From a virus: 39,519 nt of DNA. Positions 14,587-29,267 of the stretch are shown in pieces. Made by a program: the position numbers and the translations under genes. The notes beneath the pieces were generated by a model. It saw only the letters and a program-made list of their open reading frames with translations. It was not told where the DNA came from and made no database searches. Position 1 is the stretch's first letter. Every line of letters starts with the position of its first letter. The stretch is from positions 1 to 39,519 of IMG/VR virus record IMGVR_UViG_3300025120_000168. One strand, written 5' to 3'.

Positions 14587-15282
14587 TTAGTCGTCCCAAT
14601 CTTCAAGAACGTCTGCTATATCTTCTGCCTCTTTCTTTGGCGCAGCAGTCTTCTTAGCTACCTTTTTCGGTTCCTCTACCTCTTCATCCTCAAAAGGATC
14701 TTCTTCAACTTTGGCTGGTTCTTCAACCATACTAAATGGGGTATCGTCACCGAAGGTAAACCCGTCAGTGGCTTCAAATGGCGATACATTCTGCCTCTCT
14801 GCTAGCTTCAATACTTGCACGCTTTTCAACCGCAGAGACACACCAGCACCCATAGATCCGCTATAAGGCACCCCAACAATAGCAATGTTCACAAGACTAC
14901 CTGTGGTTAGTTGGAACTCTTCTGGTAGTTCTTTAACCTTAGCGTCGTACTGTGTGGGTCTTTGGGTCTTTTGCCCGTTGTAAGAACCCTTCAAAGACGC
15001 TTTGTAAGAGAACATTTCATCCTCTTCTTTTTTAAATGCGTTCTTGTACGCGGGCCAGTTCTTCTGCTTCTTCGATTCGTACAGCGTTTTCATAAAAGAA
15101 TGCAGCTCTTTCGCAGCATCTTTATTCATCTTAAAGTTAACAGAGTACTCGGCACCGTCGTCTAAAGAACCACATGGAACACTTCTGTTCTCTGTAGCAC
15201 TCCAGTTGTAGGTGCGGTCAAGTTTCGGGTACATCGCCTCGACGTTACTTACAACGTAGGCAGCAGATACTTCTTCAGACAT
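14587..15282 (-). CDS. Single-stranded DNA-binding protein, T7 gp2.5-like (231 aa)
   Basis: Predicted to coat single-stranded DNA and recruit the polymerase and primase-helicase. The first 150 residues look like a strand-rich OB-type domain (KASLKGSYNGQ, SLVNIAIVGVPYSG, AGVSLRLKSVQVLKLAE). The last 60 residues are acidic with a Lys/Ala interruption and end in ADVLEDWDD, the acidic aromatic tail typical of phage and bacterial SSBs. The length matches T7 gp2.5 (232 residues). The start has a strong site AGGAGAACAAT-ATG, a sequence reused at other genes in this operon. It overlaps the upstream Cys-rich gene by 8 bases. Confidence 0.75.
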   Translation of the reverse strand: MSEEVSAAYVVSNVEAMYPKLDRTYNWSATENRSVPCGSLDDGAEYSVNFKMNKDAAKELHSFMKTLYESKKQKNWPAYKNAFKKEEDEMFSYKASLKGSYNGQKTQRPTQYDAKVKELPEEFQLTTGSLVNIAIVGVPYSGSMGAGVSLRLKSVQVLKLAERQNVSPFEATDGFTFGDDTPFSMVEEPAKVEEDPFEDEEVEEPKKVAKKTAAPKKEAEDIADVLEDWDD

Positions 15283-22480: not shown

Positions 22481-23339
22481 TTTGACGGCCCCAGTGTTTC
22501 TGCTGCAGCCAAGTGGTCAACGCCTGTTTGTGTCTGGCGCTGCCGTACCAAACTAACCCCTGCATCAAACGATAAAGCACCCGCTGATAGGACAGAGGCG
22601 CATCAGTCCCAGCACGACCAGAATTATTTATCCTGACCGCGTGTTTACGAACTTCCTTTACGGTGTATTGCATATCCACAAACTGATTCCAGTTCTGCTG
22701 AACAGCAAGCGCGTAAGTAGTTTTAGGTGCGTGTATCGCTTCAGATATTTCTTTAGTCATAAAGGCGTCAACCAACATCTGCAGGTCATCGATATTCGTA
22801 CCCGCGTATCTGTAGTACTCCGTTTGATCCTTAGATGACAAGTCAGATGCCACCTCTGGTACTTCTGGTGCTTCTGGTGCTTCTGGTACTTCTGCACTCT
22901 CTACCTGTTCGACCTTTGGTTCTTTGGGCGGCAGGGGAAAGACTCTAAGTTTCTTGTCTTCTTTCTTTTCTTCTTTCTCTTCTACCTCTACCCTTCTTTC
23001 TAAAGTCTCTATAAGAACAGGCTCTCTATCCGAGAACTTCACAGACTTGCGATAGATGAGGACATACTCTTTTTCCTCTTCTATGTAGGCACTAACGTGG
23101 TATCGCCACTCGTTTGGGTTACTCAGCGTGGTAAAGTCAACTGTAATGCCAGACTTGCTTTTCAAGTTACCGAGAAAGATATCGTTTACCACGTAGCCGT
23201 TTACCTTTCTTTCTCCGCACTCGACTATTTCGTAAAGCCCGTCTTCAATAATAGAAGCACCCTTTGGTAAAGGCGCTTCACGTCTATGCCGCAGCACTTT
23301 TTCAAAAATCATCCCTGTGCGTAAAGATTCAAATTTCAT
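22470..23339 (-). CDS. Two-domain protein with Glu/Pro/Ala linker, unknown function (289 aa)
   Basis: The start ATG has AAAGGAGAAAGGA in front and overlaps the nuclease stop. Residues 1-115 form a strand-rich domain (GLYEIVECGERKVNGYVV, EEEKEYVLIYRKSVKF). Residues 115-165 are a charged linker with repeats of EVPEAPEAP. The last 120 residues are helical and contain NIDDLQMLVDAFMTKEISEA and SYQRVLYRLMQGLVWYGS. No known family is recognised. The linker separating two folded parts suggests an adaptor protein. Confidence 0.7.
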   Translation of the reverse strand: MKFESLRTGMIFEKVLRHRREAPLPKGASIIEDGLYEIVECGERKVNGYVVNDIFLGNLKSKSGITVDFTTLSNPNEWRYHVSAYIEEEKEYVLIYRKSVKFSDREPVLIETLERRVEVEEKEEKKEDKKLRVFPLPPKEPKVEQVESAEVPEAPEAPEVPEVASDLSSKDQTEYYRYAGTNIDDLQMLVDAFMTKEISEAIHAPKTTYALAVQQNWNQFVDMQYTVKEVRKHAVRINNSGRAGTDAPLSYQRVLYRLMQGLVWYGSARHKQALTTWLQQKHWGRQNDK

Positions 23340-23655
23340 TCCTTTCTCCTTTTAGTTTCCCCGCGCAGCTAATGAGAAGGTCGTTGGTTACGTCCAACAC
23401 GTTGTCCTCATTAACTATCCAGCTCAATCCGCCAGCGTCACTTATCTCCTGTAAATTCTTTAACTGTAAGGGCGTTGGTTTATTCCGCCCCGCTTTGCAC
23501 TCAATGCCAAAGAATCTACCTTCATAGCAACCTACGATGTCAGGCACACCGCTCTTACCGTAGCCGCCTGTAGCAGGAAAGAAGTAGTAAGCACCTAACT
23601 CGCGCAGCTGCTTAGTTACTTTTGCTTTTACTTTGCTTTCGGGTGTTGCTGCCAT
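23329..23655 (-). CDS. VRR-NUC / Holliday-junction-resolvase-like nuclease (108 aa)
   Basis: Predicted metal-dependent nuclease for branched DNA or repair intermediates. The compact PD-(D/E)XK core is visible: E6 in the first helix, GKSGVPDIVG with D39, and FFGIECKAG with E52 and K54. Next comes TPLQLKNLQEISDAGG and the final strand SWIVNEDN, typical of VRR-NUC domains. The length of about 100 is usual for stand-alone phage versions. It overlaps the small gene upstream by 44 bases and the downstream gene by 11. Confidence 0.85.
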   Translation of the reverse strand: MAATPESKVKAKVTKQLRELGAYYFFPATGGYGKSGVPDIVGCYEGRFFGIECKAGRNKPTPLQLKNLQEISDAGGLSWIVNEDNVLDVTNDLLISCAGKLKGERNEI

Positions 23656-23767
23656 TGGCTGCTTTCAGTAAATCTTTTATTTCAGCAAGCTGCTCTGTTA
23701 TCTCCTGAATAGCAGACAACAACTCACGCACTTCGTGCTCTTCCAACTCGACGGTCAACCTGCCCAT
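23612..23767 (-). CDS. Small helical protein (51 aa) before the VRR-NUC gene
   Basis: Found by reading the gap. The ATG at 23767 has AAGGAGAACATAG upstream, the same strong site used elsewhere in the operon. The product MGRLTVELEEHEVRELLSAI continues as a Glu/Leu/Ile amphipathic helix (QEITEQLAEIKDLLKAA) and ends in a Ser/Lys tail. It overlaps the nuclease by 44 bases. This looks like a short coiled-coil partner; no family is recognised. The 27-base palindrome lies only 26 bases upstream of this start. Confidence 0.65.
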   Translation of the reverse strand: MGRLTVELEEHEVRELLSAIQEITEQLAEIKDLLKAANGSNTRKQSKSKSN

Positions 23768-23793
23768 CTATGTTCTCCTTGTAACTGGTATCA

Positions 23794-23820
23794 AAATCAG
23801 GTGTAAATTACACCTGATTT
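23794..23820. promoter_or_regulatory. 27-base perfect palindrome, longest copy of the GGTGTAA-N-TTACACC family
   Basis: Arms of 13 bases (AAATCAGGTGTAA and its complement) flank a single central base. It lies in the gap just upstream of the small gene starting at 23767. The same core recurs at six other places in the window. A protein-binding site (operator) is the simplest reading. Confidence 0.75.
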
Positions 23821-23907
23821 CAAAGTGGGGGGCAGGGTACGAGGGCTAGCCTCGTCCAAGCATCCGGTTGAGACTCCCCATCACTAGAGAGTCATACCCC
23901 AAAATCT

Positions 23908-24030
23908 GTAGTGATCGACGCGATTAGATCAGTATGAAGAGGCCATGATCTAACCCCCGTGGGTTGATCGGCATCGCGCCCTTTCTTTAAATCTCTAATA
24001 CTTAGAGACCGGAGAGTCGGACATCACTAC
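23908..24030 (-). other. Multi-stem structured intergenic element
   Basis: This stretch is filled with exact inverted repeats. An outer stem pairs GTAGTGAT (23908-23915) with ATCACTAC (24023-24030). A second pairs CGCGAT (23919-23924) with ATCGCG (23973-23978). Inside it are TAGATCA (23925-23931) with TGATCTA (23946-23952), and the hairpin AACCC-CCGT-GGGTT (23952-23965), which shares one base with it. A separate hairpin TCTCTAA-TAC-TTAGAGA spans 23992-24008. Drawn as RNA this is a branched fold closed by an 8-bp stem, located in the long leader of the 23767 gene. I find no tRNA shape and recognise no riboswitch. The transcribed strand is assumed to be - from the operon direction. Confidence 0.6.
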
Positions 24031-24066
24031 CTGCCCGACTACTAGTGTCACCCACTTACCATTCGT

Positions 24067-24321
24067 TCAACCTTCAACGATAAACTTGTTGTCATCGTAA
24101 CGCCTGCCTACACCTTCTATGTAGTTCACGGTTCGGCTTTCGACAACCATCAACATCAGCAACTTGTCGCCTATGTCTTTTGGTAATTCGTCCACCGAAG
24201 CATAATACCCATCAACTACCATGTCAACACAACTCATACCAATACATCGTAAATTGATACGTCCTGTATCAAAATCTACGTATATATAGTATTCCGCGTC
24301 ATTCAACGCTGGCTTGGACAT
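24067..24321 (-). CDS. Small protein of unknown function (84 aa)
   Basis: The frame opens at 24354, but that would overlap the upstream gene by 56 bases. ATGs at 24330 or 24321 are likelier; neither has a strong ribosome-binding site, so the start is uncertain. From 24321 the product is MSKPALNDAEYYIYVDFDTG, followed by strands and a helix (VDELPKDIGDKLLMLMVVES) and ends DNKFIVEG. It resembles a small alpha/beta protein. The 300-base structured gap lies just downstream. No family recognised. Confidence 0.6.
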   Translation of the reverse strand: MSKPALNDAEYYIYVDFDTGRINLRCIGMSCVDMVVDGYYASVDELPKDIGDKLLMLMVVESRTVNYIEGVGRRYDDNKFIVEG

Positions 24322-29076: not shown

Positions 29077-29267
29077 TTACGGTTCTCCAATTTGCAAAGA
29101 AAGTGAATGACTGTGAACGTCACAGTCGCGGCGAAACACATCCAAAAGGTTATGCCTTGCCTATTGCTTACGGGTACGGTGATATCCTCCACCACACCCA
29201 GCAATGCTATGTAGGTCATAAGTCCCAATAGGACTGCGACCACTCCTGATATCTTTTCTATGTTCAT
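29073..29267 (-). CDS. Small membrane protein with two transmembrane segments (64 aa)
   Basis: The ATG lies two bases after the upstream stop, with GGGAAG in front. Two hydrophobic segments, GVVAVLLGLMTYIALLGVV (about 8-26) and FWMCFAATVTFTVIHFL (about 41-57), are joined by a short polar loop, and the C-terminus is basic (CKLENRK). Size and topology are like a class II holin, but no endolysin gene is adjacent and it is in the early operon. An early membrane protein such as a superinfection-exclusion factor is equally possible. Confidence 0.68.
   Translation of the reverse strand: MNIEKISGVVAVLLGLMTYIALLGVVEDITVPVSNRQGITFWMCFAATVTFTVIHFLCKLENRK

Follow-up and report, generated by a model that had tools for sequence, protein, structure and literature searches.

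Results and Discussion

A conserved structured RNA in an intercistronic gap

The minus strand of a 299-base gap in the early operon of an uncultured phage specifies a conserved structured RNA with a core of ~150 nt, a conclusion that we hold with high confidence and that rests on comparative evidence rather than on folding stability. The window, by which we mean the whole stretch of DNA analyzed, is a 39.5-kb IMG/VR virus record, and its large terminase best matched, among phage records, the terminase of Pelagibacter phage HTVC027P (46% identity). A minus-strand gene block spans 29.5 to 11.6 kb and encodes an AAA ATPase, a VWA/metallopeptidase-like protein, a VRR-NUC-type nuclease, a DNA polymerase, a helicase, a primase, and a gp2.5-like ssDNA-binding protein. 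Within this block, the gap (23768-24066) separates the stop of an 84-aa gene at 24067 from the start of a 51-aa gene at 23767. The best operon promoter, a perfect sigma-70 sequence (TTGACA-17-TATAAT) with an extended –10 element (TG) at 29606-29578 on the minus strand, stands at the head of the early operon, ~5.5 kb upstream of the gap. Because of this distance, the RNA is intercistronic, and its original description as a leader was strictly wrong. The elements of the RNA and its surroundings are collected in the table.

Features of the RNA, the neighboring DNA motifs, and the flanking genes (window coordinates)
Feature	Position	Strand	Remarks
Conserved core of structured RNA	23908..24057	-	5' end at 24057, ~150 nt; closing strand 23827-23823
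P0 5' strand, AAGUG	24053..24057	-	Pairs with CACUU 23827-23823; paired in all three phages
P0 3' strand, CACUU	23823..23827	-	Just before the palindrome in each of three phages
P1 hairpin, AGUCGGGC (24040-24033) / GUCCGACU (24022-24015)	24015..24040	-	Invariant in three phages; in all minimum-energy folds
P2 5' strand, GUAGUGAU	24023..24030	-	In P1 loop; 8/8 complementary to AUCACUAC; invariant; predicted to cross P1
P2 3' strand, AUCACUAC	23908..23915	-	Complementary to GUAGUGAU; invariant
Hairpin Pa	23990..24010	-	100% of cells paired; two double-sided changes
Long arm P3	23917..23980	-	P3a 23980-23973/23924-23917 (invariant), P3b 23969-23965/23931-23927, P3c 23958-23953/23943-23938
79-nt insert	23828..23906	-	Only in this phage, absent from L006 and L110; contains ACGAGG...CCTCGT hairpin
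27-bp palindrome, GGTGTAA-N-TTACACC core	23794..23820		13-bp arms, 1-nt center; same site in L006 and L110
Eight palindrome copies	23800, 27682, 28849, 29342, 29457, 30008, 31025, 38924		Several inside genes
Upstream 84-aa gene	24067..24321	-	In each of three phages, stop codon precedes the RNA core by 9 nt
Downstream 51-aa gene	23612..23767	-	Likely coiled coil; seen only beside the RNA
VRR-NUC-type endonuclease, next gene	23329..23655	-	PHROG 93 match, E 9.5e-17
GATACCAGTT motif (23792-23783) and Shine-Dalgarno AAGGAG (23780-23775) of 51-aa gene	23775..23792	-	From sequence

All of the inverted repeats described in the original prediction were found in the sequence, including the GTAGTGAT/ATCACTAC pair (23908-23915 / 24023-24030), TTAGATCA/TGATCTAA, CTCTAA/TTAGAG, and the ACGAGG...CCTCGT hairpin. 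The gap also folded more stably than shuffled sequence, as had been anticipated: as minus-strand RNA the whole 299 bases reached –114.8 kcal/mol (z = –5.5), with 0 of 200 shuffles equally good, and the z-score of the opposite strand was –3.8. For the core alone, z was ~–3 on the sense strand in each of three phages and ~–1.5 on the antisense strand. When the whole window was scanned for folding in 150-nt segments, that of the core (z –3.7) ranked only sixth among 394 on the minus strand, and its stability alone is therefore not extraordinary and no proof of function. The lowest z-score in that scan (–5.7) belonged to minus-strand positions 29101-29250, which lie mostly within a 64-aa ORF; a longer stretch there had a z-score of –2.9.

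Covariation supports a sense-strand RNA

Two related phages in IMG/VR, L006 (1602-1765) and L110 (10665-10825), carry the core at the corresponding place in the operon. L006, which has the same gap element, was reached by a search with the neighboring 316-aa protein (57% identity), and L110 was reached through a 17-mer of the element; its 316-aa gene is 75% identical and its 84-aa gene 88% identical to those of the window. Three further records (L001, L005, L007) are identical to the window.

Several comparisons among the three sequences support the conserved fold. First, in an alignment of 167 columns, with the 79-nt insert of the window set aside, 141 of 142 base-pair cells were paired (99.3%). 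Second, both partners had changed in five pairs, two in hairpin Pa, one in P3b, and two in P3c, giving a covariation score that was matched by 3 of 500 shuffles; the two P3c changes depend on the alignment within a variable loop. The Pa changes convert U-A to C-G and C-G to U-A and are accompanied by two G-U/A-U changes, and P3b and P3c together contain four one-sided G-U changes besides the double-sided ones. Compensatory changes on the sense strand are thus present in the homologs, in five pairs across three sequences; their absence would have refuted the original prediction, and the earlier suggestion of a structured noncoding RNA is supported. Third, displacing the partner strands by one to three columns lowered pairing from 99% to 36-46%, and in a null model with random substitutions at the same columns the observed pairing was reached in ~1 of 10,000 trials. 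Finally, 47 of the 71 unpaired columns were invariant, more than a mere spacer would need. P1, P2, and P3a did not vary in the three phages and for that reason lie beyond a covariation test.

These comparisons also bear on the notion that the hairpins arose by chance in a young, little-diverged gap. The sixth-place rank of the core in the stability scan and the 87-90% identity of the adjoining 84-aa coding DNA among the relatives would fit such an origin, but the variation that does exist, in helices as well as loops, preserves pairing, and pairing collapses when partners are slid. We therefore regard chance as extremely improbable.

The strand on which pairing is kept distinguishes an RNA from a DNA-level element such as a replication origin, a cruciform, or a protein-binding site. 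Read on the minus strand, each of the seven one-sided changes is a G-U wobble, and in the variable pairs 38 of 39 cells pair on the minus strand vs 25 of 39 on the plus strand. Because the one-sided changes are minus-strand wobbles, what is conserved is the sense RNA and not a DNA cruciform, and this strand difference is the strongest evidence for that conclusion. The locus lies in a replication operon and adjoins a palindrome that is a dispersed DNA motif, as a DNA-level function might predict, yet the changes in the core keep pairing on one strand only, by way of G-U, and the switches in GC skew coincide with the changes of gene direction near 11-12 and 31 kb rather than with the gap. A DNA-level element is accordingly a very improbable explanation of the core.

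The conservation might instead have a coding origin, in a small ORF or leader peptide or in the remnant of a degraded gene end. All three phages share an open stretch of ~20 codons (KWVTLVVGQVVMSDSP...) in the frame of the 84-aa gene, and an AUG with a purine-rich stretch upstream is located at the base of P3. Nevertheless, an ATG start was found in L006 only, residue-altering codon changes outnumber silent ones in the in-phase frame, and stops lie within hairpin Pa. Reading from the inner AUG gives frames of different lengths in the three phages. Indels in P3c shift the frame; moreover, coding would leave the paired changes further 3' unexplained. We judge this explanation improbable.

A predicted pseudoknot with a branched third loop

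The fold of the core is probably an H-type pseudoknot in which P1 is crossed by P2, with a first loop of 2 nt and a third loop that holds a hairpin and a branched arm in the modeled structure. The 8-bp stem noted originally as closing the structure is present and corresponds to P2, but it need not close anything: in the nested fold of lowest energy, GTAGTGAT falls within the loop of the more stable P1 hairpin, and the stem is for this reason better read as the second helix of a pseudoknot. When nested folds lacking the pseudoknot were compared, the version with P1 was ~7 kcal/mol better than the version with P2 in each phage. The segments GUGGGU (24055-24050) and ACCCAC (23964-23959) are invariant and otherwise weakly paired, and they could add a second crossing helix, although at only 6 bp their complementarity is possibly due to chance. 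Pairing of an anti-Shine-Dalgarno sequence, UCUCC, with GGAGA was considered and set aside; these segments are complementary and invariant but short, and calculated pairing probabilities gave no support.

The pseudoknotted topology, the invariant core loops, and the potential second crossing helix call to mind a self-cleaving or otherwise catalytic RNA that would cut the early transcript at the gap. HDV-like ribozymes have the helix order P1-P2-P3 hairpin-P1'-P4-P2'. The order in the phage RNA differs, as zero nucleotides separate the P2 5' strand from the P1 3' strand and leave no place for a P3 hairpin, and no Rfam ribozyme matched even at E 10. Catalysis thus seems very unlikely.

The predicted fold resembles riboswitches and other RNAs in which a stem-loop is embedded in an H-type pseudoknot (three-stemmed pseudoknots; PMC11262651), with additional helices placed within the third loop and many unpaired bases kept invariant. 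Unlike those RNAs, the phage element has no sequence or covariance match in Rfam. A riboswitch or processing role, as raised in the original prediction, is possible.

In the window, the RNA is enlarged by the 79-nt insert, which fits exactly between the P0 3' strand and the single A that follows the P2 3' strand. In the predicted fold this insert forms a closed domain of its own, although its stability alone is not significant (z –1.7). The ACGAGG hairpin of the original prediction exists but belongs to this insert and hence to the one phage, not to the conserved core. The insert also carries a second UAGUGAU, which could compete for AUCACUA.

The RNA is known from one narrow phage group

A covariance model of the core scored 183-189 bits for all three phages, which served as a positive control, and found no additional copy in 83 sources and 43 whole relative contigs; a match in L033 (16 bits, E 0.09) was taken as chance. 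Four 16-17-mer scans of IMG/VR and one of GTDB returned only copies of the window, L006, and L110, the remaining matches being chance by inspection; two relatives matched in the k-mer scans (L113, L114) share the palindrome only. Nothing real was found by blastn against phages and plasmids, where phage matches at E 8 were due to chance, and a tRNA/tmRNA search found none. Searching the element against Rfam, a check named with the original prediction, matched no family at gathering or permissive thresholds: Rfam 15 gave 0 matches in the whole window at the gathering threshold, and at E up to 10 the window and L006 gave only chance-level matches and L110 gave none.

The gene context was likewise restricted. 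The 51-aa gene follows the RNA in both phages whose contigs continue. Relatives of the VRR-NUC protein, a name taken from annotated phage homologs, are encoded at at least 382 IMG/VR loci, but in fifty-odd such relatives the corresponding slot contained ~60 nt or other ORFs, and no such RNA was found in these gaps. By these searches, we know the element from a single narrow group of phages, of which the records searched contained no cultured member. The family is new as far as the Rfam, IMG/VR, phage, plasmid, and GTDB searches show, a comparison outside of which lie the motif lists of structured-RNA discovery papers (PMC2864571, PMC8040213, PMC12286853, and others); structured regulatory RNAs as such are already known from phage mRNAs.

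The palindrome is a separate DNA motif

The 27-base palindrome was correctly placed before the next gene in the original prediction, but it proved to be a dispersed DNA motif and not part of the RNA structure. GGTGTAA-N(1-2)-TTACACC, with up to two mismatches, occurs at eight sites in the window vs 0-1 in shuffled sequences, and L110 has six sites in 10.9 kb, some at corresponding genes. From this distribution, the most plausible role of the palindrome is that of a DNA site bound by a regulator, operator- or "stoperator"-like and outside the RNA fold. Like the stoperators of mycobacteriophages (PMC9283540), to which the palindrome only is comparable, these appear to be repressor-type sites scattered across a phage genome, some inside operons or genes; the mycobacteriophage sites are asymmetric 13-bp sequences, whereas those described here are palindromic and known from the DNA sites alone. 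Assignment of the palindrome at 23794-23820 as an intrinsic terminator was rejected, as a terminator scan missed it and it recurs elsewhere, coding regions included.

Other relatives (L035, L037, L050, L079, L098, L104, and others) have different palindromes, which usually directly follow the stop of the 84-aa homolog and are often repeated in the contig; examples are TTAGGGA..TCCCTAA, TCGGGCA..TGCCCGA, and GTAGTGA..TCACTAC. From these sequences, the specificity of the site seems to diverge between phages. Just upstream of the start of the post-palindrome gene is GATACCAGTT or its reverse complement AACTGGTATC, kept across divergent phages in both orientations, and the ACCAGTT motif precedes VRR-NUC or neighboring ORFs on either strand in many relatives.

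A possible cis-acting role

Our preferred explanation, which we hold at slightly less than even odds, is that the RNA acts in cis on the translation or processing of the 51-aa and VRR-NUC genes downstream of it. Transcription from the ~29.6 kb promoter would read through the gap, making the RNA part of a polycistronic early/replication mRNA. Because the core starts 9 nt past the upstream stop, terminating ribosomes would cover its first strand, and by such coupling ribosomes terminating on the 84-aa gene might hold the 5' strand of the RNA open. With sparse ribosomes, the closing stem and the P1/P2 pseudoknot would form, and the folded element, either by itself or in complex with a ligand or with a protein of phage or host, would limit ribosome entry before the 51-aa gene; alternatively, it would direct mRNA cleavage or stability at that point. 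The genes affected would be those for the 51-aa protein and the VRR-NUC nuclease and then the remaining replication genes. The Shine-Dalgarno sequence of the 51-aa gene was mostly unpaired in predicted folds, and thus no direct occlusion was seen. A cis role is supported by the presence of the RNA in the same slot in all three phages and by its constant 9-nt spacing to the upstream stop, but among only three close relatives a constant position fits action in trans as well as in cis.

The main rival is a trans-acting noncoding RNA, processed from the operon transcript or made from a promoter inside the 84-aa gene, that binds host or phage targets. The compact closed fold and the many invariant unpaired bases would suit such an RNA, and a promoter-like TTGACA-17-TATGCT sequence is present at 24227-24199 on the minus strand within the 84-aa gene, with both hexamers kept in the three phages. 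Conservation of these hexamers may reflect coding constraint or an internal promoter for the RNA; a single promoter-like match is fewer than the 1.7 expected in shuffled sequence, and a scan for an intrinsic terminator after the core found none. Overall, we view a trans-acting RNA as possible but rather unlikely. A defense RNA or an RNA of a Type III toxin-antitoxin system was also considered and rejected. Type III RNAs consist of short pseudoknot repeats in tandem ahead of a ToxN-like nuclease, whereas the gap is without a tandem repeat and the adjoining genes are without a toxin or defense family.

A cis-acting element would have a precedent in the pseudoknot before gene 32 of phages T4 and RB69, which serves as the translational operator of a replication protein (PMC535899). 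Like that pseudoknot, the one predicted here lies ahead of a gene start within a polycistronic mRNA for phage replication, and both operons have a gene for an ssDNA-binding or ssDNA-binding-like protein. The T4/RB69 operator, however, is ~28 nt and is bound by the phage ssDNA-binding protein, whereas the RNA described here is ~150 nt with branched arms and is known from sequence alone. Placement like that of the gene 32 operator also fails, as the next genes are the 51-aa ORF and VRR-NUC, and the gene for the gp2.5-like single-strand-binding-like protein (14587-15282, PHROG 112) is ~8 kb downstream of the RNA.

Phages pack genes tightly, and a conserved 150-nt noncoding RNA in a replication operon must therefore earn its place. 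There is some chance, which we put well below even, that the element represents a new class of pseudoknotted regulatory RNA, one that senses a ligand or a protein or else acts in trans, that is confined to one uncultured phage group and can accept a whole extra folded domain at a helix boundary. In any case, the three natural variants with compensatory changes, one with a domain insert, define a concrete and testable RNA family. If the RNA does control the downstream nuclease or replication genes, it would be a second kind of pseudoknot-based control beside that of T4 gene 32.
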